This document shows, piece by piece, positions 23,321 through 36,277 of a stretch of 64,000 nt of DNA (positions within the stretch are counted from its first letter, which is position 1; the number at the start of each line of letters is the position of its first letter). The notes under the pieces are model-generated. The model did not search any database. It was not told where the DNA came from and saw only the letters and a program-made list of their open reading frames with translations. This stretch comes from Candidatus Rokuibacteriota bacterium (GTDB taxonomy: Bacteria; Methylomirabilota; Methylomirabilia; Rokubacteriales; CSP1-6): positions 62,001 through 126,000 of the forward strand of contig QHRU01000036.1 in assembly GCA_003220225.1 (NCBI GenBank). The letters are read 5' to 3'. The position numbers and the translations under genes were made by a program.

Positions 23321-24015
23321 GCCGTGCGGCGCGGGCGCTGTGGCTCGCGGCCGCGCTCGTCGCGCTCGCGAGCGGCGAGGCGCTGGCCACGTGCCCGCCC
23401 TTCACCGGCGGCAGCGGTAACTGGCTCGAGCGGTTCGCGGCGAGCCGGGGCGGGCGCGCGGCGCCGCCCTCCGATGCCGAGCTGCACGACTGGCTCCGCC
23501 GCGAGAACATCCCGCCGATCGGCGTCGTTCCGCCGAGCGGCCCAGCCCCGCTGTCGGTGCGGGCACGCTGGCTGTACGACCCCGTCGCCGATCCGGCGAA
23601 GATCGAGCTCGACGCCGGCGACGGCCGACAGCAGACGCTCGGGCCGGGCTACGGACACATCGATCACACCTACGACCGTGCCGGCCGCTACGACTTCACG
23701 GTCTGGGTCCACGAGCGCGGCGGCGGCGTCCAGCGCTACTCGTCGCCCGTGGAGGTGCTGTCGCCCGCCGCGTTCGAGGCGGAGCTCCAGTCGCACTGGG
23801 ACACCCTGAAGACCCGGCTGGGCCGCGGCGACGTCGCCGGCGCGCTCGACTGCATCCATAGCACGCGACGCGCGGAATACGCGCGGCTCTTCGACGAGGT
23901 CTTCGTCATCGCCGTCTACCACATGCTCCGGACCGACCCGCCGCACGGACGGCTGTCCTACGACGTCCGCTTCGTGATCGACGGTGACGGCGTGTGGCGG
24001 CTGCGCTCGTTCTGA
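23317..24015 (+). CDS. Exported protein with PKD-like region
   Basis: The product is 232 residues from GTG. A signal peptide (ALWLAAALVALASGEALA) ends just before a Cys (LATC), so a lipoprotein is possible. Residues about 80-150 resemble a PKD/Ig-like fold: ARWLYDPVADPAKIELDAGD, then HIDHTYDRAGRYDFTVWVHE. The C-terminal third (WDTLKTRLGRGDVAGALDCI, then RRAEYARLFDEVF) is helical and resembles proteins that follow a nuclear-transport-like fold, but the assignment is not safe. It probably acts in the periplasm or at the cell surface. Confidence 0.6.
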   Translation: MSRAARALWLAAALVALASGEALATCPPFTGGSGNWLERFAASRGGRAAPPSDAELHDWLRRENIPPIGVVPPSGPAPLSVRARWLYDPVADPAKIELDAGDGRQQTLGPGYGHIDHTYDRAGRYDFTVWVHERGGGVQRYSSPVEVLSPAAFEAELQSHWDTLKTRLGRGDVAGALDCIHSTRRAEYARLFDEVFVIAVYHMLRTDPPHGRLSYDVRFVIDGDGVWRLRSF

Positions 24016-24046
24016 TGCGCTCCGCCGCGCGCGCGGATCGCGCCGC

Positions 24047-25432
24047 ATGAGCGCGCGGGAGCGCATGGATCGCTTCTACCGCGCGGTGCGCGCCGTCGCG
24101 CGGTTCTGGCTCTGGTTCTTCTTCAAGGCGGTCGACGTGCGCCACCCGGAGCGCGTGCCCCGCGAGGGGCCGGTGCTCCTCTGCATCAATCACCCCAACA
24201 ACTTCATCGACTCGTTCGTCGTCGGCGCCGCCGTGCGGCGCAAGGTCCACTACCTCGCCACCGCCGCCCTCTTCCGCAACCCGCTCGTCGCGCGCTTCCT
24301 GCTCGCCGCCGGCGCCATCCCCGTCTACCGCAAGCAGGACGATCCCGGGAAGATGGACAAGAACAGCGACACATTCGCGGCGTGTGCGGCCGGCTTCGAG
24401 CACAACGCGCTCATCGCGATCTATCCCGAGGGCACGACCCACGCCGAGGCCCGCGTGCAGCGCATCAAGACGGGCGCCGCGCGCATCGCGCTGGCGTGGG
24501 AGGCCGCGCACCCGCGCACGCTGAGGGTGCTGCCCGTCGGCCTCACCTTCGAGGCGCGTAAGTCGTTCCGCGCGCGCGTGCTCGTGTCGTTCGGGCCGCC
24601 CCTGCCGCTTCACGCGTACGCCGACGCGTACCGCGAGGACCCCGTGAAGGCCGTGGACGCGCTCACGCGCCACCTGCAAGAGGCGATGGAGGCGGAGGTC
24701 GTCAACGTCGAGCGGATCGACGACGCGCGGCTGCTGCAGTCGATCGAGGCGCTCTACCGCGACGTCCTCGCGCGCGCGGTGATGGAGGCGCGTGGCGTCG
24801 GCCCCCGCGACGTGGACCTGGTGCGGCTCTCGCGCTCGATCGTCGAGGCCATCGGCTGGTTCAAGGCGCGCGAGCCCGAGCGCGTGGAGGCGATCTGGCT
24901 GCGCATCCGCGCCTACCGCGCGCTGCTCGCGCAATATCACCTGCGCGACGAGACGGTGCGCGCGCGGCTCGAGCGGTTGCCGGCGCGGCGACGGATCGTC
25001 TCTTCCTGGGACGCCATCGTGGGGTTCCCGTTCTTCCTGTACGGCACGCTCGTGAACCTGCTGCCGTATCTCGTGCCGCGCTGGCTGGCGCGGCGAACGG
25101 CGCGCAAGGAGACCGACTACGCCACCGTGCGGCTGCTCGCGTCGATCGTCGCCGTCCCCGTCTTCTATGGCCTGGAGACGTGGCTCGTCTTCCGCGCCGC
25201 CGGCGGCCTCGCCGCCGCGCTCTTCGCGCTCTCCCTGCCGCTCTCGGGGATGATCGCGTATCGTTATCTGGCTGGCGCCGGGCGGTTCGGCAGTCGCCTC
25301 CGGTTCGCCGTGCTGACGGCGACGCAAGCGGCGGCGGCGCGGCGGCTGGTGGTCGAGCGCGAGGCGATCGTCGCCGAGCTGGAGCGCGCCAAGACCGAGT
25401 GGCTCACCGCCACCAAAGGGAGCAGCTTTTGA
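24047..25432 (+). CDS. Phospholipid/glycerol acyltransferase (PlsC-like domain)
   Basis: The product is 461 residues. The acyltransferase box is INHPNNFIDS near residue 46 (catalytic His and Asp) and the acceptor motif is IYPEGTTH near 126. The spacing NHPNNFID is that of the glycerol-3-phosphate/DHAP acyltransferase branch. Two hydrophobic segments near residues 320-400 anchor it in the inner membrane. It probably acylates glycerol phosphate or lysophosphatidate. The stop overlaps the next start by TTGA. Confidence 0.82.
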   Translation: MSARERMDRFYRAVRAVARFWLWFFFKAVDVRHPERVPREGPVLLCINHPNNFIDSFVVGAAVRRKVHYLATAALFRNPLVARFLLAAGAIPVYRKQDDPGKMDKNSDTFAACAAGFEHNALIAIYPEGTTHAEARVQRIKTGAARIALAWEAAHPRTLRVLPVGLTFEARKSFRARVLVSFGPPLPLHAYADAYREDPVKAVDALTRHLQEAMEAEVVNVERIDDARLLQSIEALYRDVLARAVMEARGVGPRDVDLVRLSRSIVEAIGWFKAREPERVEAIWLRIRAYRALLAQYHLRDETVRARLERLPARRRIVSSWDAIVGFPFFLYGTLVNLLPYLVPRWLARRTARKETDYATVRLLASIVAVPVFYGLETWLVFRAAGGLAAALFALSLPLSGMIAYRYLAGAGRFGSRLRFAVLTATQAAAARRLVVEREAIVAELERAKTEWLTATKGSSF

Positions 25433-26376
25433 GCGTCCACCTGCTGGAGGAGATGTCCACGCCCGCCGTCGACGCCCTCGACCGCGCGAAGACGGTGGTG
25501 CTGCTGACCATCAGCCCGCTGGAGACCCACGGGCCGCACCTGCCCGTCGGCGTGGACGCGTTCACCGCGCGTCACTTCGCCCAGACGATCGCCGACCGGC
25601 TCGTGGCCGCCCGGCCGGGCTGGTCAGCGGTGCTGGTGCCGACGCTGCACCTCGGCTCGTTCACCTTCGACAGCGTCGGCACCGTGACCGTCCGCCAGCG
25701 CGTGGTGCGCGACGCGCTCGTGGACTACGGCAGCGCCTTCGCGCGCGCCGGCTTCCGCTACATCCTCATCGCGAACGGTCACGCCGGGCCCGGCCACCTC
25801 GCGGCGCTCGACGAGGCGGCCGCCCTCGTCTCGCGACGCCACGGCATCACCATGGCGTCGTTCACCGGCCACCTCGCCTGGGAGTTCATGCGCGGCCACT
25901 ACGCGACGAAGATCGAGGCGGTCCTCGGCCGCTCGATGAGCGACGAGGAGCGGCGTGCGTTCGCCGAGGACGCGCACGGCGGCTGGTGGGAAACGTCGCT
26001 GATGCTGCTGCTGCGGCCCGACCTGGTGGACGAGTCCTATCGCACGCTGCCGCCCGCCCGCTACTCGTGGCCGGAGCGGATCCTGCCGAACTACGCGCTG
26101 CGCAAGGGCGGCCTCGGCTACGTCGGCCATCCCGCGCTCGCCGATCCGGCCTTCGCGCGCGCAACGACGGACGTGCTCATGACGGAGGCGATGGCCATCG
26201 TGGACGGGCTGCTCGACGGCACGCTGTCGCACTCGGCGCGGCGCTCGCCGTTCTCGAGGGTGCCGCTGTTCCGCACCAACTTCTGGCCGGCGACCGCCGG
26301 CGTCACCGCCGGGCTCGGCGCGCTCGCCGTCGGTGTCGCGGGCTTTCTGCTGCGTCGCCGTCCCCCGCCGGCGTGA
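25429..26376 (+). CDS. Creatininase-family amidohydrolase with C-terminal membrane segment
   Basis: The product is 315 residues from TTG at 25429 (TTGA overlap, AAAGGGAGC upstream). Metal ligands of the family are in LETHGPHLPVGVDA (Glu32, His34, Asp43), NGHAGPGH and DAHGGWWETS. Members hydrolyse cyclic or linear amides such as creatinine, mycofactocin precursor or formamidopyrimidines. An added C-terminal tail contains a transmembrane helix (VTAGLGALAVGVAGFLLRRR), unusual for this soluble family. It overlaps the enoyl-CoA hydratase gene by GTGA. Confidence 0.8.
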   Translation: MSVHLLEEMSTPAVDALDRAKTVVLLTISPLETHGPHLPVGVDAFTARHFAQTIADRLVAARPGWSAVLVPTLHLGSFTFDSVGTVTVRQRVVRDALVDYGSAFARAGFRYILIANGHAGPGHLAALDEAAALVSRRHGITMASFTGHLAWEFMRGHYATKIEAVLGRSMSDEERRAFAEDAHGGWWETSLMLLLRPDLVDESYRTLPPARYSWPERILPNYALRKGGLGYVGHPALADPAFARATTDVLMTEAMAIVDGLLDGTLSHSARRSPFSRVPLFRTNFWPATAGVTAGLGALAVGVAGFLLRRRPPPA

Positions 26377-27131
26377 GCGACCTCGTCCTGCTCGACGACC
26401 CGCGCGACGGCGTCGCGCGACTGACCCTCAACCGTCCCGAGGCGCTCAACGCGCTGAATCGTCCGATCGCCGACGCGCTCGAGGACGCGCTGGGTCGCGC
26501 GGCGGCGATGGACGACGCGCGCGTGCTGCTCGTGGCCGGGCGCGGACGCGCCTTCTGCGCGGGCAACGACATCGCCGAGATGGGCGAGATCGCGGGCCCC
26601 GAGGCGGAGGCGCTCGCGCGGCGCTGGGCGGCGATCATGGAGCGCTTCGCCGCGCTGCCCCAGGTGACGATCGCCGCCGTGGACGGTCACGCGCTCGGCG
26701 GCGGCCTGATGCTCGCCGTCGCCCAGGATCTCAGGATCGCCTCCGACCGCGCGCGCTTCGGCCTGCCGGAGGTCACGCTCGGCTTCAACCCCGCCTACGG
26801 CATCGCGCGGCTGCTCGACGTGCTGGGCGGCGGCCACGGCCGCGACCTGCTGCTCACGGGACGCACGCTGCACGCCACCGAGGCGCTGCGCATGGGCCTG
26901 GTGAACCGCGTGGTGGCGGCGACGACGCTGGCGGAGACGGCCGTGGCGTGGGCGACGGAGATCGCGAAGTCGCCGCGCGAGGGCCTGGCCGCGACGAAGG
27001 AGATCGTGGCCGCCATCCGCGGCGGCCAGCCGGGCGGCGACCCGGCCGCGTATGGGGCGGCGCTCAGGACCGGCGCCGCCGCCCGTGAGCGCATCCGCGC
27101 CTTCGTCGAGCGCAAACGGCAGCACGGCTGA
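26373..27131 (+). CDS. Enoyl-CoA hydratase/isomerase
   Basis: The product is 252 residues with the crotonase fold: LTLNRPEALNALN at the start, the oxyanion motif GRAFCAGNDIAEM near residue 60 and VDGHALGGGLMLAVAQDLRI near 100. FGLPEVTLGFNPAYGIARLL carries one of the two catalytic glutamates (PEV). The Glu usually found about 20 residues earlier is less clear, so isomerase or other crotonase chemistry is possible. It ends the 22769-27131 plus-strand unit. Confidence 0.85.
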   Translation: MSDLVLLDDPRDGVARLTLNRPEALNALNRPIADALEDALGRAAAMDDARVLLVAGRGRAFCAGNDIAEMGEIAGPEAEALARRWAAIMERFAALPQVTIAAVDGHALGGGLMLAVAQDLRIASDRARFGLPEVTLGFNPAYGIARLLDVLGGGHGRDLLLTGRTLHATEALRMGLVNRVVAATTLAETAVAWATEIAKSPREGLAATKEIVAAIRGGQPGGDPAAYGAALRTGAAARERIRAFVERKRQHG

Positions 27132-27170
27132 TTTCCCATCAATGGAGACTTCGACGGCGTTCAGCGGCGA

Positions 27171-29429
27171 CTACTCTCCGCGCGAGCTCTTCTTGTCCTG
27201 CATGTTGCGGTCGGCGTCGCGGAGGAACTCCTCGGCGGTGTCGGGCGGGGACTGGCTCCACGCGAGCCCGGTGGAGCACTCGACGGAAACGGGCAGGCGG
27301 CGCTGGACGCCGAGCGCGGCCAGCTTGTCGCGCACGCGGGCGGCGACGATCTCGGTGTCCTTCGGCTGCGCGTCCAGCAGCAGCACCGCGAACTCGTCGC
27401 CGCCGTAGCGGGCGATGAAGTCGGTGGTCCGCGTGGACTCGACGAGCGCGTCGGCCACCGTTCGCAGCACCTCGTCGCCGAGCGCGTAGCCGAAGCCGTC
27501 GTTCACCGACTTCAGATTCAGCACGTCGAGCGCGAGCAGGAGCAGCCCGGTCTTGCGGCGGCGCGCGCCGGCCGCGAGCCTGCGGTACTGCTCGTGGAAC
27601 GCGCGGCGGCTGGCGAGACCCGTCAGGGGGTCGGGCGCGTAGCGCGCGAGCTTGCGGTCGGCGTCGTACAGCCGGCCGGCCACGACGCGCAGGAGCGCGT
27701 TCGAGAGCTCGCTGGAATCCTCCAGCACGGCCAGGAAGTCGCGCTGGCGCAGGACCAGGCAGTGCGTGCGGTCCACCGCGATGACGGTGGCCGAGCGCGG
27801 CTGGTCGCGCAGGATGCCGAGCTCGCCGAAGATCTCCGCCTTGCCGATCTCACCCAGCAGCATCTCCGCCTGCCCGTCGGCGGTGGCCTCGACCACGCGC
27901 ACGCGGCCCGAGAGCAGGACCCAGAGGTTTTCAGGCGGCTCGCCCTGGCGCGTGACGATGTGGCCGGAGGGATAGACCTGCTCGCTGGCGCGCCGTACGA
28001 GCATGTTCAGCTGCTCGGGCGTGCACTTTCTGAACAACGGCACGGACGCCAGGATGCTGGCCAGGAGCGTCTGCGTCGTCGCGTGGTCCTCGATCGTCTC
28101 CGGCCGCCCGGGCGACTCCTCGCCCTCGGCCTGGCCGTCGAAGGAGACCACCGTGCGCGCCAGCCACGAGCGCACGCGCGCGCGGAGCATCGGCGGGCTG
28201 TACGGCTTCGCGAGGTAGTCGGTGGCTCCGGTCGCCGCGCGGTCGGCGGCGGCGTCGGGCCGGTCGGCGAGCAGGAGGATCGGAAAGTTCGGGCGGTTCA
28301 GGCGCGCGCGCAACGCCGGGATGAGGTCGATGCCGTCGGCGGGCGGCAGGTCGGCGTCGACGATGGCGAGGTCGGGCAGGTGCTCGGTGCCGCGCGTGAG
28401 CGCCGCGTGCATGTCGGGCACGGGCAGCGCGACCATGCCGTCCTCCGCCAGCACGTCCTCGATCGTCATCACCTGTGTCTCGTCGGAGGTGACGACGAGC
28501 ACGCGCGCGCCGGCGACGAGCCGCCGCCGCAGCGCGGAGATGTCGGACACCGGCGCGGAGCCGCCGTCGCCGCTGATCGTCAGCTCGATCCCCTCGCGCG
28601 CGGCGAAGACCTCCATGCGCGAGCCCGCCGCCTGCGCGCGCGCCCGGGCGCTCGCCTCCAGGCGCTCCATCGCCGCGTCGTCGTGGGTCGGGTCGTGGTG
28701 GAAGAGCGCGACGCGCTTGGCGCCAGCGGCCATGGCGACGTCCACCGCGTACTCGAAGGTCGAGTGGCCCCAGCCCACGCGCTGCAGAAACTCCTCCTCG
28801 GTGTACTGCGCGTCGTGGATGACGAGGTCGGCGCCCTTCATGAACGCGACGTGGCGCTGGTCGCCCGGATGATGGAGGATCCCTTCCTCCGGCTTCCAGA
28901 ACGGCTCGTGGTCGGTGCAGTAGGCGACGGTGGCGCCGCCGCTCGTCATGCGGTACGCGATCGTCGGTGCGGTGTGGTTGAGGTACTGCGTCTCCACGAG
29001 CACGTCGCCGACGCGGAAGAAGCCCTCCTCGAGCTCGGTGAAGTGGATGCGCGAGCGCAGGTCCCGGAGCTTGACCGGGAAGTACGAGTACTCCATCTGC
29101 CCCGCCATCGCCTCCTCGAGGCTCTGCTGGAAGCCGAGCGGCGCGTAGACGTTCAGCTCGACGCCGGGAATGAACGCGGGGACGAAGAACGGAAAGCCCT
29201 GGATGTGGTCCCAGTGCGTGTGGCCGATGAAGAGGTGCAGGTGGACCGGCGGCTTCAGCGTCTGGGTGAGGTGGAGGCCGAGCTCGCGCGCGCCGGTCCC
29301 GCAGTCGAGCACGATCACGGTGCCGTCCGCCCCGCGGACTTCCGTGCACGACGTGTTGCCGCCGTAGCGCGCGGTGTGCTCGCCGGGCGCGGCGATCGAG
29401 CCGCGAGTACCCCAGAACCTGACGTACAC
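27171..29429 (-). CDS. Four-domain signalling protein: MBL, receiver, cyclic-nucleotide-binding, GGDEF
   Basis: The product is 752 residues from GTG at 29429 with GGAGG upstream. Residues 1-280 form a metallo-beta-lactamase domain (HTHWDH at 70-75, later TDHEPF, HDAQYTEEEF, GWGHST), like cyclic-nucleotide phosphodiesterases of the RNase Z/AdpP group. About 290-415 is a receiver domain with VDADLP and the KPY lysine. About 430-560 is a cyclic-nucleotide-binding domain (GEIFGELGILRDQPRSATV-type phosphate cassette). About 575-745 is a GGDEF domain with an intact GGDEF at 676-680 and an RxxD inhibitory site (RTTD) five residues before it. It should make c-di-GMP under control of phosphorylation and cNMP. 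Confidence 0.88.
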   Translation of the reverse strand: MYVRFWGTRGSIAAPGEHTARYGGNTSCTEVRGADGTVIVLDCGTGARELGLHLTQTLKPPVHLHLFIGHTHWDHIQGFPFFVPAFIPGVELNVYAPLGFQQSLEEAMAGQMEYSYFPVKLRDLRSRIHFTELEEGFFRVGDVLVETQYLNHTAPTIAYRMTSGGATVAYCTDHEPFWKPEEGILHHPGDQRHVAFMKGADLVIHDAQYTEEEFLQRVGWGHSTFEYAVDVAMAAGAKRVALFHHDPTHDDAAMERLEASARARAQAAGSRMEVFAAREGIELTISGDGGSAPVSDISALRRRLVAGARVLVVTSDETQVMTIEDVLAEDGMVALPVPDMHAALTRGTEHLPDLAIVDADLPPADGIDLIPALRARLNRPNFPILLLADRPDAAADRAATGATDYLAKPYSPPMLRARVRSWLARTVVSFDGQAEGEESPGRPETIEDHATTQTLLASILASVPLFRKCTPEQLNMLVRRASEQVYPSGHIVTRQGEPPENLWVLLSGRVRVVEATADGQAEMLLGEIGKAEIFGELGILRDQPRSATVIAVDRTHCLVLRQRDFLAVLEDSSELSNALLRVVAGRLYDADRKLARYAPDPLTGLASRRAFHEQYRRLAAGARRRKTGLLLLALDVLNLKSVNDGFGYALGDEVLRTVADALVESTRTTDFIARYGGDEFAVLLLDAQPKDTEIVAARVRDKLAALGVQRRLPVSVECSTGLAWSQSPPDTAEEFLRDADRNMQDKKSSRGE

Positions 29430-29491
29430 GCTGCCTCCAGCTGTCGTGACGTGGAACGCGGCGAATATAGCACCAACGCGCGGCGGCGGGC

Positions 29492-29497
29492 TACAAT
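29492..29497 (+). promoter_or_regulatory. -10-like TACAAT upstream of the Liv operon
   Basis: TACAAT lies about 41 bases before the ATG at 29539, followed by an AAGGAGGGA ribosome-binding site. This is a conventional leader, unlike the leaderless genes nearby. Confidence 0.45.
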
Positions 29498-29538
29498 GCC
29501 GCCCGGCGAGGCCGGTCGGACCACCAAGGAGGGATCGC

Positions 29539-30810
29539 ATGCGCTGTACCCGCCGCCACTTTTTAAAGCTGTCCGCTGCGGGCGCCGCCGCCGCGGCCCT
29601 CCCGCTCGACGTCGCTCCCGTCCTGGCGCAGAGCGGACCCGTCCGGCTCGGCATCCTCGTCGCCAAGGCCGGCGTGCTGGCCCCCGTCGGCGAATCGGGG
29701 CTGCGTGGCGTGCAGTTCGCCACCGACCGCATCAACGGCGCCGGCGGCATCCTCGGCCGCAAGCTCGAGCTGGTGATCGAGGAGGAGTCGAGCCCGAAGG
29801 ACACCGTCGAGCGCTTCCGCAAGCTCGCGCTGCAGCACAAGGTGGACGCGGTCAGCGGCGCGATCTCCACGGGCGTCGGGCTCGCGCTCGGTCCCGCCGC
29901 CGAGGAGATGAAGACGATCTGGCTCTCGTGGGACGCGACCACGCAGAAGGGCGTCGAGGAGTCGATGCCCAAGCCGAAGTACTCGTTCCGCTCGACGGAC
30001 AACGAGTGCGAGGCGGTGATGGCCTCGATCCTCACCGCCCGGCACTGGAAGGGACGATTCAAGACGGTGGCCGGCATCAACCCCGACTACTCGTACGGCC
30101 GCGACAACTGGGCGGCCTTCCTGGCGATCATGAAGAAGTACGGGATCGAGGCGCAGGTCGTGAGCGAGCTCTGGCCCAAGCTCGGCGCGACGGACTTCAC
30201 CTCGCACGTGGCGACGCTGGCGCAGGCCAGGCCGGACCTGATCTTCTCGTGCTTCTGGGCGGGCGACACGCCGATCTTCATGAAGCAGGCGCACGCGGCC
30301 GGGCTCACCAGGTCGACGAAGCTCGTGCTCACCACCGGCGGCGGCGTCCACGAGTCGCTCAAGAAGGACTTCACGCCGGAGGGCGCCCTCCTCGGCTACA
30401 ACTGCTTCTACTTCGAGAACACGAAGGCGAGCGCGCTGGCCAGGGAGTTCACGCGCTGGCACCACGACAAGTTCAAGGAGTGGCCGAACTACGAGTCCGA
30501 CCACGGCTACTTCACGGTGGCGGCCTTCAAGGCGGCCGTCGAGCGCGCGGCCAGGGCGGGGGGCGGCAAGTGGCCGACGCAGGACGCCATCATCCAGGCG
30601 CTCGAGGGCGTGGAGGCGGAGTCGCTGTCCGGACCGCGGCGCTACCGCGAGGACCACATCATGGAGGCGACGTTCTTCCAGGGCTTCACCACCCACAAGA
30701 ACAAGCACGACTTCGTCACCATCGATCCCGTGGAGTCGATGGGCACGAAGCAGATCCAGAAGCCGTCGGGCGTCGGCCTCTACGACTGGATCAACGGCTG
30801 GAAGGTCTGA
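29539..30810 (+). CDS. Branched-chain-type ABC transporter substrate-binding protein
   Basis: The product is 423 residues with a twin-arginine-like signal (RRHFLKLSAAGAAAAALPLD). The mature part has the LivJ/K fold: VRLGILVAKAGVLAPVGES, FATDRINGAGGILGRKLELV and YSYGRDNWAAF. In this family ligands include branched-chain amino acids, amides, urea or aromatic acids; the cargo cannot be told from sequence. It is the first gene of a complete importer (SBP, two permeases, two ATPases) and is well translated, with AAGGAGGGA. Confidence 0.9.
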   Translation: MRCTRRHFLKLSAAGAAAAALPLDVAPVLAQSGPVRLGILVAKAGVLAPVGESGLRGVQFATDRINGAGGILGRKLELVIEEESSPKDTVERFRKLALQHKVDAVSGAISTGVGLALGPAAEEMKTIWLSWDATTQKGVEESMPKPKYSFRSTDNECEAVMASILTARHWKGRFKTVAGINPDYSYGRDNWAAFLAIMKKYGIEAQVVSELWPKLGATDFTSHVATLAQARPDLIFSCFWAGDTPIFMKQAHAAGLTRSTKLVLTTGGGVHESLKKDFTPEGALLGYNCFYFENTKASALAREFTRWHHDKFKEWPNYESDHGYFTVAAFKAAVERAARAGGGKWPTQDAIIQALEGVEAESLSGPRRYREDHIMEATFFQGFTTHKNKHDFVTIDPVESMGTKQIQKPSGVGLYDWINGWKV

Positions 30811-31685
30811 CGCTCGTCGGCATCCTGCTGGGCGGCGTCTTCCACGCCGCCGTGCTGTTCCTGGTGGCGGCGGGGCTGCAGCTGGTCTTCGGAGTCCAGA
30901 AGATCCTGAATCTCGCGTGCGGCTCGTTCTACGCGCTGGGGGCGTACGCGGGGGTCTCCGCCGTGCGCGCGGCGCTCGCCGCGGGGCTGCCGGCGCCGCT
31001 CTTCTTCCCCGTCCTGCTCGGCGCCGGGCTCGCGCTGGCCGTCATCGGCCCCGCCATCGAGCGGCTGCTGCGCCCGATCTACGATCGCGACGAGTCGTTC
31101 CAGCTCCTGCTCACCTTCGCGCTCGTGCTCATGTTCGAGGACGTGATCCGCTTCGTCTGGGGCACCGCGCCGCACCAGCTCGGCAACGTCTACCTGACGT
31201 ACGGCCAGGTGCGCGTCGGCGCACTCACCGTCCCCACCTACAACCTCGTCGTCATCGCCTGCGGCGCGGCCATCGCGGCCGGCATGGGGTGGTTCCTCGC
31301 GCGCACGCGCTTCGGGCGCATCGTGCGCGCCACCGCCGAGAACCGCGAGATGGCCGAGGCGATGGGCGTCGACATGGCGCGCGTCTACTCGCGCGTCTTC
31401 ACCCTGGGCGTCGCCCTCGGCACCGTGGGCGGCGCGCTCGTGATTCCCGCCACCGCCGCCGTCAACGAGATGGGCATCGACCTGATCGTGGAGGCGTTCG
31501 CGGTGGTCGTCATCGGCGGGCTCGGCAGCATGCGCGGCGCCTTCGCGGGCGCGCTCATCGTCGGCGTGGTGAAGGCGGTGGCCATCGCCACCTGGCCGGA
31601 AGTCGAGATGCTCGCCATCTACGTGATCGTCATCGCCGTGCTGGTCCTGCGGCCGGCGGGACTCTTCGCCCGGGCCACCGCGTGA
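30807..31685 (+). CDS. livH: ABC permease, LivH type
   Basis: About 292 residues if translation begins at CTG 30807, which shares CTGA with the previous stop. No ATG, GTG or TTG lies in the right place; the next GTG (30849) would cut into the first membrane helix. LVFGVQKILNLACGSFYALG and the late VVVIGGLGSMRGAFAGALIV (EAA-like loop) are LivH hallmarks. About eight membrane segments are present. It forms the channel with the downstream LivM-type protein. Confidence 0.88.
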   Translation: MTLVGILLGGVFHAAVLFLVAAGLQLVFGVQKILNLACGSFYALGAYAGVSAVRAALAAGLPAPLFFPVLLGAGLALAVIGPAIERLLRPIYDRDESFQLLLTFALVLMFEDVIRFVWGTAPHQLGNVYLTYGQVRVGALTVPTYNLVVIACGAAIAAGMGWFLARTRFGRIVRATAENREMAEAMGVDMARVYSRVFTLGVALGTVGGALVIPATAAVNEMGIDLIVEAFAVVVIGGLGSMRGAFAGALIVGVVKAVAIATWPEVEMLAIYVIVIAVLVLRPAGLFARATA

Positions 31686-32629
31686 TCGTGCGCGCGCTCG
31701 GCCTGGCCGCGTGCGCGGCGCTGCTGCTGCTGCCGCTGGCCGGTCTGCCCTACACGACGACGCTGCTGCTGCCCGCCTTCGGCTACGCGATCGCGCTCCT
31801 CGGCCTCAACCTCCTCTTCGGGACCACGGGCCTGCTCTCGTTCGGCCACGCCCTCTTCGTCGCGCTCGGCGGCTACACGGCGGCGGTGCTGACGAGCCGG
31901 CTCGGTGTGCGCAGTCTCGAGATCGTCCTGCTGGCGGCGGCGGCCACGGCCGTCGTCGTCGCCGGCCCCGTGGGCCTGGTGTGCGTGCGCTACGTGAAGA
32001 TCTACTTCGGGATGCTGACCCTCGCCTTCGGCATGCTCTTCTACTCCTTCCTCTACAAGTTCTACGCGCTGACCGGCGGCGACGAGGGCATGCGCGTGCT
32101 CCGCCCCGTCCTCCTCGGCCGGCCGCTCGAGCACCTCGACACGGTCGCGTTCCTCACGGGACCCTTCTACTATTACGCGCTCGCCGTGCTGACCCTGGCC
32201 GCCCTCGTCATGCGCCGCCTCGTGGCCTCGCCCCTCGGGCTCTCGCTGCGCTCGATCCGCGAGAACGCCGCCAAGGCGGAGTCGCTCGGCGTCAGCGTGC
32301 GCCGCTACCGGCTGGCCGCGTTCGTGGTGGCCGCGGTCTTCGGCGCCGTCGGCGGCGCCCTGCTGGTGGTGCCCACCGGCCTCGCCGATCCGCTGCTCGC
32401 CTACTGGACGCACTCCGGCAACCTGGTCTTCATGCTGCTGCTCGGCGGCTTCGACCACTTCTTCGGCCCCGTGCTCGGCGCCGTGGTCTTCATCCTGCTG
32501 CAAGACCAGGTGATGTCGCTCACGTCCTACTGGCGCTTCCTCTTCGGCGCGATCCTGGCCGTCGTCGTCATCTTCTTTCCGCGCGGGCTCATGGGCCTGC
32601 TCGATCCGCGGCGGGCGCCCGCGCCGTGA
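31682..32629 (+). CDS. livM: ABC permease, LivM type
   Basis: The product is 315 residues from GTG (GTGA overlap). YAIALLGLNLLFGTTGLLSF and GHALFVALGGYTAAVL are LivM signatures; RENAAKAESLGVSVRRYRL and VFGAVGGALLVVPTG follow. It has about eight to nine membrane helices. It pairs with LivH to form the membrane channel of the importer. Confidence 0.9.
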   Translation: MIVRALGLAACAALLLLPLAGLPYTTTLLLPAFGYAIALLGLNLLFGTTGLLSFGHALFVALGGYTAAVLTSRLGVRSLEIVLLAAAATAVVVAGPVGLVCVRYVKIYFGMLTLAFGMLFYSFLYKFYALTGGDEGMRVLRPVLLGRPLEHLDTVAFLTGPFYYYALAVLTLAALVMRRLVASPLGLSLRSIRENAAKAESLGVSVRRYRLAAFVVAAVFGAVGGALLVVPTGLADPLLAYWTHSGNLVFMLLLGGFDHFFGPVLGAVVFILLQDQVMSLTSYWRFLFGAILAVVVIFFPRGLMGLLDPRRAPAP

Positions 32630-33378
32630 CGCTGCTGGAGGCGGCGGACGTGAGGAAGTTCTACGGCGACACCTGCGCGCTCGACGGCGTGAGCCTGCGC
32701 GTGGACGCGGGCGAGTTCGTCTCGATCATCGGTCCCAACGGCGCCGGCAAGACGACCCTCGTGAACGTGCTGACCGGGCTGGCGCCGCCGTCGTCGGGCC
32801 GCGTGAGCTTCAAGGGCGTCGACGTCGTCGGCGCCACGCCCGTCCGCCTGGCGCGACTCGGGATGGCGCGCTCGTTCCAGCTCGTGACGATCTTCCCCGG
32901 GCTCAGCGTGGCCGACACGCTGGCGGTGGCCGCGCTGTCGCGCCTGGGACGCAGCGCCCGGCCCTTCACCGCCCTCGCGCGCGACGCCGAGGTCCGCGCG
33001 GCCGTGGAGGAGGTCGCCGTGCTCTTCGGCCTGGCCGACAAGCTCGGGCGCCTGGCGCGCACGCTGCCCCAGGGCGACAAGAAGCTCCTCGACGTCGCGA
33101 GCGCGTTCGCGCTCCACCCGGACGTCATCCTGATGGATGAGCCGACGAGCGGCGTGAGCACCGCCGACAAGACGGCCGTCATGGAGACGCTGGTGCAGGC
33201 GGCGCGGCGCATGGGCATCCGGGCCATCGTCCAGGTCGAGCACGACATGGACATCGTGTTCGGCTACTCCGATCGCATCGTCGCGCTCCACCAGGGGCGC
33301 GTGCTGGCCGACGCGACGCCCGACGCGATCCGCGCCGACGCCGATGTCGTGGCCACCGTCGTCGGACGCCCCCGCTAG
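32626..33378 (+). CDS. livG: ABC ATPase, LivG type
   Basis: The product is 250 residues from GTG (GTGA overlap). Walker A is GPNGAGKTT near residue 37 and Walker B is VILMDEPTSG. The signature loop reads LPQGDKKLL instead of LSGGQ, as in many LivG-like proteins. It drives the importer together with LivF. Confidence 0.9.
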   Translation: MTLLEAADVRKFYGDTCALDGVSLRVDAGEFVSIIGPNGAGKTTLVNVLTGLAPPSSGRVSFKGVDVVGATPVRLARLGMARSFQLVTIFPGLSVADTLAVAALSRLGRSARPFTALARDAEVRAAVEEVAVLFGLADKLGRLARTLPQGDKKLLDVASAFALHPDVILMDEPTSGVSTADKTAVMETLVQAARRMGIRAIVQVEHDMDIVFGYSDRIVALHQGRVLADATPDAIRADADVVATVVGRPR

Positions 33379-33380
33379 CC

Positions 33381-34084
<704 letters not shown>

Positions 34085-34088
<4 letters not shown>

Positions 34089-35125
34089 TCACGCCCATGG
34101 CCACGCTCCCCCTGCTGCCCACCTCGGTCGTCGGATCCCACGGCAAGCCCGGCTGGTGGTTCACCGCTGTGAAGGCGTGGGAGGGCGCCGAGATGGGCCC
34201 CGGCGACATGGACGAGATGTTCGACGACGCCGTGCACACCGCCATCCGCGACATGGAGACGGCGGGCATCGACATCATCACCGACGGCGAGGTGCGGCGC
34301 ACCGACGGGTACGTCGACACCTACTACAAGATCATCAAGAACATCGCGCCGCTGCCGGTGCGCCGGAAGGCCGGGCCGTGGGGCTACGACCAGCAGCAGC
34401 GCTACGAGGCCGTGGGCCGCATCGAGGTGCCGTCCACCGGCTTCGGCCTCGTCAAGGACTTCCAGTTCCTGCGCGCGAACACCGAGCGCGCGCTGAAAGC
34501 CACGTGCGCGGGCCCGCTGACATTCGGCTCGCGGATCCATCCCGGGAGCGCCTACAAGGGTGTGGTCGAGGTCGCCGAGCGTTTCGCCGAGGTCATCAAT
34601 GCCGAGCTCAAGGGGCTCGCCGCCGCCGGCGCCGAGCTGATCCAGCTCGACGAGCCCGCGCGCGGCAACGTCTCGGGCGAGGAGATGGCGCGGCTCTTCA
34701 ACCTGGCCACCGACGGCGTGAAGGCGAAGCTCGCCTTCCACATCTGCTTCGGCAACCGCTTCGGCCGCTCACGCTTTCCGCGGTCCTACGAGCCGTACTT
34801 CCCCGGCGTGCTCAAGGCGCGCGCCGAGCAGTTCGTGCTGGAGTTCGCGAGCCGCGAGCTGTCGGAGGTCGACCTCTGGAAGACATACGGCGACGGGCGC
34901 GAGCTGGGCGCGGGCGTGGTGGACGTGAAGGGCTTCCAGGAGGAGACCGCGGACTCCGTGGCCCGGCGCATCCGCCGCGTGCTCCAGGTCTGCGCGGCCG
35001 AGAAGCTCACGCTGAACCCCGACTGCGGCTTCGGCTGGTCGCCGCGCTACATGTGCAACCAGAAGCTGACAGGGCTGGCGGCGGGGGCGGCCCTGGTCCG
35101 TGCGGAGCTGACCGGCAAGAAGTGA
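34085..35125 (+). CDS. MetE-like (UROD/MetE fold) methyltransferase homologue
   Basis: The product is 346 residues (342 if ATG 34097 is used). The N-terminus [19 protein letters not shown] and the middle ITDGEVRR and [11 protein letters not shown] resemble the C-terminal half of cobalamin-independent methionine synthase. Probable zinc ligands are the His and Cys of FHICFGN and the Cys of NPDCGFGW. Single-domain relatives act as methyltransferases with unknown or corrinoid-linked substrates. Its link to a Liv-type importer suggests that the imported compound is its substrate or product, but this is inference. Confidence 0.78.
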
Positions 35126-35196
35126 CGCGGGAACCGGGGATCCCATCGCGGGGTTTGGGCCGTGTGCGATGCTGGTACCCGATGGAGGGACACCCC

Positions 35197-35388
35197 ATGA
35201 CAGGATCCCGCTCGTACGACGCGGTCATCACCGACCCCGCGAGCCCGATCTTCCGCTACGCCAAGCGTGCGTACTTCATCGTCGATCGCCAGGGTGTCCT
35301 TCGCGACATGAAGGTTCAGCAGAACCCGCTCGAGCTGCTCAAGCCGGAGGAAGTCCTGCAGGCGCTCAAAGACTCGGGGGCGAAGTGA
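35197..35388 (+). CDS. Peroxiredoxin-tail protein, 63 aa (possible remnant)
   Basis: From ATG 35197 with GGAGGG upstream. The sequence [20 protein letters not shown] then [15 protein letters not shown] matches the C-terminal part of AhpC/TSA-type peroxiredoxins, but the N-terminal part with the peroxidatic Cys is missing. It has no Cys and cannot be a peroxidase alone. Its stop shares GTGA with the candidate selenoprotein, so it is transcribed and probably translated with it. Either a truncated remnant or a small accessory protein. Confidence 0.55.
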
Positions 35389-35921
35389 GGTCCTCCATCG
35401 TCGCGCTCGCCGCCGCCGTCGCCCTGACGGTCGCGGCGGTCGCGGCCGCCGCCCCCGATTTCGCGAGCCTCCAGATCCAGCCCTACGAGCCGCCGAAGCC
35501 CGCGCCCGCGTTCTCGCTGCCCGGGCTCGACGGCACGCCGCAGACGCTCGAGTCGCTGCGCGGCAAGGTGGTGCTCCTCTTCTTCTGGGCCACCTGGTGA
35601 CCGGACTGTCGGAAGGAGTTGCCTTCCGTCGACGCCCTCTATAAGGAGTACAAGGCCCGGGGTCTGGAGGTCCGCCTGATCGACTTCCGCGAGAGTCCCG
35701 ACGTCGTTCGCAAAGCGGTCGCCGAGCGCGGCTACACCGCCCCCGTGCTGCTCGACGAGAGCGGCGACACGACGGGCCGCATGTATGGCGTGTGGGGCCC
35801 GCCGACGGTGTACCTGCTCGACCGCCAGGGCCGGCTCGTCGGCCGCGCGGCGGGGCCGCGCGCGTGGGAGTCGCCCGCCGCGCGTGCGCTGATCGAGGCG
35901 CTCCTCTCCGCGCCGCGCTGA
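35385..35921 (+). CDS. TlpA/thioredoxin-like exported protein, candidate selenoprotein (in-frame TGA)
   Basis: The frame from GTG 35385 runs to TGA 35919 with one internal TGA at 35598-35600. Around it the protein reads [10 protein letters not shown]-(TGA)-PDCRKELP, so TGA takes the place of the first Cys of the WATWCxxC redox motif, giving a UPDC site (residue 72, with Cys75). Both sides are well-formed TlpA/redoxin: signal peptide [40 protein letters not shown] before, and [16 protein letters not shown] with the cis-proline after. A hairpin follows the TGA at once. With selenocysteine the protein would be 178 residues, a periplasmic disulfide reductase or peroxide reductase. If the cell lacks Sec machinery it would be a broken gene. 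Confidence 0.7.
35610..35628 (+). promoter_or_regulatory. Candidate bacterial SECIS hairpin
   Basis: CGGAAGG (35610-35616) pairs with CCTTCCG (35622-35628) around the loop AGTTG. The loop begins 16 bases after the TGA and has G in its second position. This agrees with the general bSECIS plan: a short stem-loop inside the coding region just 3' of UGA with a G at the start of the apical loop, bound by SelB. Confidence 0.5.
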
Positions 35922-36277
35922 TGGCGAAGGCGGAGCTCGAGTTCTTCCGTCCCGATCACCTGCCGTGGACGCGGGTGGCGGGCTCCGCCACCGCCGGCGC
36001 CGGCGGCGCCGGCATCGAGGAAAAAGTCCTGAGCCGCGATCCGGCCACCGGCGACCTCACGCGCCTGCTCCGCTTCGCGCCCGGCGTCCGTACCGCCGAG
36101 ACCATCGCGCACGACTTCTGGGAGGAGGTCCTGATCGTCGAGGGCAGCCTCGAGGACCTCGGGCTCGGCCGCACGTTCAGCGCGGGCATGTACGCGTGCC
36201 GTCCGCCCGGCATGCGCCACGGCCCGTACGCCTGCCCGGGCGGAGCGCTGCTGTTCGAGACGCGGTACCGGAGGTGA
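35921..36277 (+). CDS. Cupin-domain protein
   Basis: The product is 118 residues starting at an ATG that overlaps the stop of the TlpA-like gene (TGATG). EEVLIVEGSLEDLG and MYACRPPGMRHGPY form the two cupin motifs, like the ChrR C-terminal cupin. A metal is probably bound by His/Glu residues. Function unknown; ChrR-type cupins sense oxidants, which would suit its redox neighbour. A nearly identical but frameshifted second copy lies at 39811-40064. Confidence 0.7.
   Translation: MAKAELEFFRPDHLPWTRVAGSATAGAGGAGIEEKVLSRDPATGDLTRLLRFAPGVRTAETIAHDFWEEVLIVEGSLEDLGLGRTFSAGMYACRPPGMRHGPYACPGGALLFETRYRR

Follow-up and report, generated by a model that had tools for sequence, protein, structure and literature searches.

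A bacterial MBL, pseudo-receiver, cNMP-binding and GGDEF fusion protein as a possible converter of cyclic mononucleotide signals into c-di-GMP

Enzymes of c-di-GMP metabolism that respond to a cyclic mononucleotide have been described in several bacteria. In XC_0249 of Xanthomonas campestris, a cNMP-binding domain is joined to a GGDEF domain, and binding of cGMP to the cNMP domain raises diguanylate cyclase activity (PMC3770947). Bd1971 of Bdellovibrio combines a cNMP-binding domain with an EAL domain and degrades c-di-GMP (PMC6717892), and Lcd1 of Leptospira, as cited in the same paper, has a cAMP-sensing GAF domain together with GGDEF. Hydrolysis of cyclic mononucleotides, in turn, is carried out by enzymes that include several of the MBL fold. 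Rv1339, YhfI and C. glutamicum CpdA, all PF12706 proteins, define the atypical class-II phosphodiesterases, which are related to RNase Z and are thought to derive from the RNase Z group (PMC9293780). YhfI prefers cAMP and cGMP, and Apyc1 (anti-Pycsar) is an MBL-fold cNMP phosphodiesterase (PMC9117128).

The protein reported here is encoded within a 64-kb window (the whole stretch of DNA that was analysed) of the Rokubacteria-type genome (6.0 Mb in 167 contigs) of a soil bacterium. It comprises 752 amino acids, read from a minus-strand ORF at 29429-27171, with domains in the order MBL, pseudo-receiver, cNMP-binding and GGDEF (27171..29429; this and all features of the gene given below lie on the minus strand). 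Like XC_0249 it joins a cNMP-binding domain to GGDEF, whereas XC_0249 is cGMP-specific and has neither an MBL domain nor a receiver. With Bd1971 and Lcd1 it shares the principle of a c-di-GMP enzyme that senses a cyclic mononucleotide; neither of these, however, has a hydrolase of the input, and Lcd1 senses through a GAF domain. A receiver-like domain upstream of an I-site GGDEF is also found in PleD (REC-REC-GGDEF), but here the receiver is not phosphorylatable by sequence, the cNMP domain lies in between and the MBL domain stands in front. The protein is a new form of cNMP-controlled diguanylate cyclase rather than a new category.

The gene begins with a GTG codon at 29429, just downstream of a Shine-Dalgarno-like GGAGG (29434..29438), and ends at a stop codon at 27171-27173; the start residue is common to the relatives. 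Four Pfam matches, each exceeding its curated cut-off, cover the chain: Lactamase_B_2 (residues 39-245, 3e-16), Response_reg (310-420, 1.5e-12), cNMP_binding (484-571, 5.5e-22) and GGDEF (600-749, 9e-33). Eighteen database loci in other species encode the protein at full or near-full length, the taxa that hold it being Rokuibacteriota, Nitrospirota, Acidobacteriota and one Chloroflexota MAG. Within the same family, 27 of 57 genomes carry the four-domain gene essentially complete, and both the cNMP and GGDEF domains are present in 18 of the 19 aligned members. The closest genus relative is 91% identical across the whole chain, with dN/dS values against the nearest relative of 0.12-0.19 within each of the four domains. 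In view of these loci, genomes and substitution rates, the gene is real and under constraint, and is the product of neither chance nor assembly fusion. The single-chain, four-domain fusion proposed in the first-pass annotation is therefore borne out by Pfam order, conservation and dN/dS. A tree restricted to MBL-domain sequences groups the four-domain proteins in a single clade (SH-aLRT 98-99). A search of open-access papers found none on this four-domain fusion or on MBL as an output domain of response regulators.

Two irregularities in the public records were apparent. Three relatives (L042, L044 and L013) come from records whose titles name Klebsiella pneumoniae, Halobacteria and Chloroflexi, yet in the tree they look foreign to those taxa, which probably reflects wrong labelling or binning of the MAGs. 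In one genus relative (G002 C65:14578-16714; L090, L091) the gene is split over two frames, with the break in the receiver, which is probably an assembly error.

The gene is not part of a run of genes. On one side it converges with an enoyl-CoA hydratase gene; on the other it diverges from a substrate-binding protein gene, the first of an ABC transporter of the branched-chain amino acid type. No cyclase adjoins it. The wider order (acyltransferase, creatininase, enoyl-CoA hydratase, four-domain gene, branched-chain amino acid ABC transporter; window 23981-36000) is kept in several Rokubacteria genera. The hydratase and transporter flank the gene in six to eight Rokubacteria loci, and the neighbours are different in other phyla. 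A functional tie to the transporter or the hydratase was rejected, because order conserved only within Rokubacteria is read as shared position. The genome as a whole offers suitable company for such a protein, with 21 class III cyclase domains and 12 matches to cNMP-binding, together with 6 GGDEF domains and 3 PilZ domains.

The C-terminal half has the anatomy of a regulated diguanylate cyclase. Its cNMP-binding domain (residues 456-595; 27645..28064), delimited by Pfam, alignment and structure model, ends in a C-helix (573-595) that runs towards GGDEF. The phosphate-binding cassette GELGILRDQPRSATV (27783..27827) includes E536, found in 19 of 19 four-domain proteins, and R545, found in 18 of 19. 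The GGDEF diguanylate cyclase domain follows directly (residues 596-752; 27174..27644), and its metal and substrate residues, D635, N643 and D652, are invariant across the 19 proteins. The GGDEF motif itself (residues 676-680; 27390..27404) keeps DEF throughout, and five residues ahead of it is an RTTD I-site (residues 667-670; 27420..27431), the Arg and Asp of which are likewise invariant (19/19). The protein thus has what a cNMP-regulated diguanylate cyclase calls for, namely a cNMP domain directly before GGDEF, the cassette Glu and Arg, and the catalytic and I-site residues. The first reading of an active-looking cyclase with an I-site agrees with residues that are all but invariant, and the proposed link from cNMP to c-di-GMP is well supported by this anatomy and by the precedent of XC_0249, which has the same domain pair (PMC3770947). 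The residues and the XC_0249 precedent predict that a bound cyclic mononucleotide controls c-di-GMP synthesis by the C-terminal half, and that c-di-GMP itself would limit this synthesis via the I-site.

The N-terminal MBL-fold domain (residues 1-290; 28560..29429) is assigned by Pfam, alignment, structure model and profiles to Lactamase_B_2, of the RNase Z / atypical class-II phosphodiesterase type. Its metal-binding motif, HTHWDH (residues 70-75; 29205..29222), is invariant in 79 MBL relatives, in which H70, H72, D74, H75, H152, D173, H205, D206, H222 and H245 are all retained. Like the atypical class-II phosphodiesterases Rv1339, YhfI and CpdA, it therefore combines a PF12706 fold close to RNase Z with an HxHxDH motif and a complete di-metal site (PMC9293780). 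Those enzymes, however, are single-domain proteins, and their signature, [T/S]HXHXDH, reads GHTHWDH in the window gene and in all 19 four-domain proteins; of the 63 other relatives, 52 begin it with S or T. At 36 bits, the score against NF041851 (cyclic nucleotide-degrading phosphodiesterase) is also below the cut-off of 400. RNase Z ranks first by both sequence profile (PDB search, E 1.7e-18) and structure; the predicted model (pLDDT 87) aligned with RNase Z at TM 0.70/0.76, with YhfI at 0.65/0.78 and with yeast PDE1 at 0.65/0.55, the PhnP family also being among the best PDB matches. The HST motif of RNase Z is kept (H222-S-T), but the exosite arm is absent, with 21 residues between H152 and D173, the HEAT motif is HDAQ, and the best NCBIfam match, RNase Z TIGR02651, falls far below its cut-off (77 bits versus 293).

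Other assignments were rejected. The domain did not match PDEase_II (PF02112) at E 0.1, nor did any of the 79 relatives at 0.01, and Apyc1 (PF23023) was unmatched by the window gene and matched by one of the 79 relatives, at E 0.008. These profiles rule out membership of the typical class-II phosphodiesterases or of Apyc1, which belongs to the same MBL superfamily but reaches a TM of only 0.56-0.60 by query length. A phage link was likewise discarded, all that came up being a match at 24% identity in a single Enterococcus phage, together with distant viral folds. By sequence and model the domain thus fits the atypical class-II phosphodiesterases in fold and metal site, though not in signature or by the NF041851 cut-off. 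The first-pass annotation had described the domain as phosphodiesterase-like, a description that loss of the metal site or closer kinship to other hydrolases was to count against. Neither point refutes it: no metal ligand is missing, and RNase Z, to which the domain is closest, is the presumed origin of the atypical class-II enzymes (PMC9293780).

Genome context bears on the substrate. The MBL domain occurs alone, as MBL-REC, as MBL-pseudoREC-GAF, as a three-domain MBL-pseudoREC-cNMP protein and in the four-domain form. Among 12 alphaproteobacterial plasmid records with a stand-alone MBL (33-43% identity, same catalytic motifs), nine have a class III cyclase gene at a distance of 5 kb or less, where about 1.1 would be expected. 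Computed as if the records were independent, P is about 6e-9 for this distance and 2e-6 for same-strand direct neighbours, values that are too strong given that several rhizobial loci represent one syntenic cluster; at least three to four of the arrangements are distinct. In Ensifer, a CHASE2-cyclase gene overlaps the MBL gene. In Rhizobium ACO-34A, genes for a cNMP-binding protein, the MBL and a 2Fe-2S-cyclase form a same-strand row, the last two also following one another in Allorhizobium, and in Mesorhizobium a cNMP-binding gene lies directly upstream of the MBL gene. On a Niveispirillum plasmid the MBL gene is divergent from a gene for a protein with two cNMP-binding domains, which is followed by a GGDEF gene, in a region left unannotated in the record. 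Furthermore, an MBL-REC-GAF gene of Sphingomonas directly precedes a GAF-PAS-cyclase gene, and a cyclase was present, within the fetched stretch, in 4 of 26 tested genome loci (0.6 expected). A broad neighbour scan that took in both MBL-REC-GAF and MBL-REC genes showed hybrid histidine kinases next to some of the latter and no prevailing partner for the former. The class III cyclase and cNMP-binding genes beside the stand-alone relatives support cyclic nucleotides as the substrate of the domain, with hydrolysis of cAMP, cGMP or a related cNMP as its most likely activity. The phosphodiesterase-like label thus holds in part: the metal ligands and the company of the relatives speak for it, whereas the proximity to RNase Z and the cyclic nucleotide profiles do not.

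Several of these loci have features of their own. The Niveispirillum locus (L206 2736-5828) presents the components of the window protein as separate genes. In two of the adjoining class III cyclases (L207 5853-7628, L208 5849-7603), the catalytic domain is preceded by a ferredoxin-like domain of the 2Fe-2S type, possibly a redox-controlled synthesis of cNMP paired with its hydrolase. The rhizobial cluster (L203, L204, L205, L210) consists of MBL, polysaccharide deacetylase and GT4 glycosyltransferase genes, with a class III cyclase gene nearby, joined in L204 and L205 by DUF3095 and nucleotide sugar dehydrogenase genes, which suggests cNMP control of surface polysaccharide.

The strongest competing explanation, which we consider possible but clearly less probable than cNMP hydrolysis, is that what the MBL cleaves has nothing to do with cyclic nucleotides, or is an unknown phosphodiester metabolite, and that the domain serves as a sensor-enzyme, the cNMP-GGDEF half working on its own. 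The best family models, RNase Z and generic Lactamase_B_2, are consistent with this, as are the polysaccharide genes that also adjoin the Rhizobium copies. In addition, several MBL-REC genes adjoin a hybrid histidine kinase with Hpt and look like ordinary phosphorelay outputs; the two-domain relatives are not beside cyclases. Against it, cyclase and cNMP-binding neighbours recur in several arrangements. Less probable still is an MBL on the output side, cleaving c-di-GMP, pGpG or another dinucleotide or RNA end, so that the protein would be a bifunctional enzyme of c-di-GMP turnover gated by cNMP. An RNase Z-type phosphodiesterase fold and the union with GGDEF in the four-domain clade would suit such a role, but most MBL relatives have no GGDEF at all, their neighbours are cyclases and cNMP proteins, with a clear GGDEF neighbour only in Niveispirillum, and we know of no MBL-fold c-di-GMP phosphodiesterase.

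The second domain (residues 309-423; 28161..28505) had been taken for a phospho-receiver, and this part of the first-pass annotation fails. D358 and K408 are kept, but the acidic pair is replaced by T314/S315 and the switch Thr by A388, so that only part of what phosphorylation calls for (an acidic pair, the phospho-Asp, a Thr or Ser, and the Lys) remains. The acidic pair is lost in 19 of 19 four-domain proteins, where a small residue preceded by S or T mostly takes its place, and about half of these proteins have Ala for the switch Thr. In contrast, 24 of 26 two-domain MBL-REC relatives retain the pair, and nearly all keep the D, T and K. Judged by its sequence, the domain is a pseudo-receiver throughout the four-domain clade, and given this degeneration a phosphorylation input is unlikely. 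A canonical response regulator, in which receiver phosphorylation turns on the MBL and GGDEF domains, is thus very improbable and was set aside for want of the acidic pair, despite the Response_reg match, the retained Asp and Lys and a PDB search in which the closest receiver structures were those of PleD; nor does any histidine kinase adjoin the window gene. The relatives with an intact pair include a two-domain MBL-REC paralogue in the same genome (L002 315-2826, contig C1; 50% identity, intact receiver), which directly follows, in the same orientation, a gene for a Spo11-like subunit A of topoisomerase VI, a neighbour that is unusual for a bacterium.

Between the MBL-receiver half and the cNMP-GGDEF half is a linker (residues 424-455; 28065..28160) with a dN/dS of 0.85 against the genus relative, a mean identity of 18% and an AlphaFold pLDDT of 26-34 at its centre. 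The protein would therefore consist of two constrained halves on a free tether, which argues for co-location over rigid or tight allostery between them.

The remaining proposal of the first-pass annotation, a self-contained signal converter, retains its anatomy and its cNMP to c-di-GMP link, but the receiver is degenerate and the sequence profiles do not support a cNMP-degrading role, leaving the case roughly evenly balanced. At that level of confidence, we favour a model whereby an atypical class-II cNMP phosphodiesterase is flexibly tethered to a cNMP-controlled diguanylate cyclase, forming a self-limiting converter of cNMP into c-di-GMP. The N-terminal half would be a di-metal MBL of the RNase Z-derived, atypical class-II kind with an unphosphorylatable receiver, and would reduce the cNMP, whether nearby or throughout the cell, that the other half senses, such that the signal is ended or thresholded. 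In this model we infer the MBL substrate, the direction of cNMP control and any coupling of the halves. More tentatively, and with slightly less confidence than in the converter itself, the MBL family may represent an undescribed clade of bacterial cNMP phosphodiesterases, serving as outputs of phosphorelays or GAF sensors or, in the four-domain clade, combined with a diguanylate cyclase and a cNMP sensor, so that a single chain would sense the messenger, break it down and turn the signal into c-di-GMP. If correct, one protein would remove cNMP, sense it and produce c-di-GMP, providing a compact, timed conversion between second messengers, and bacteria, whose means of cNMP degradation are often unknown, would gain a widely distributed family of cNMP phosphodiesterases under regulation.
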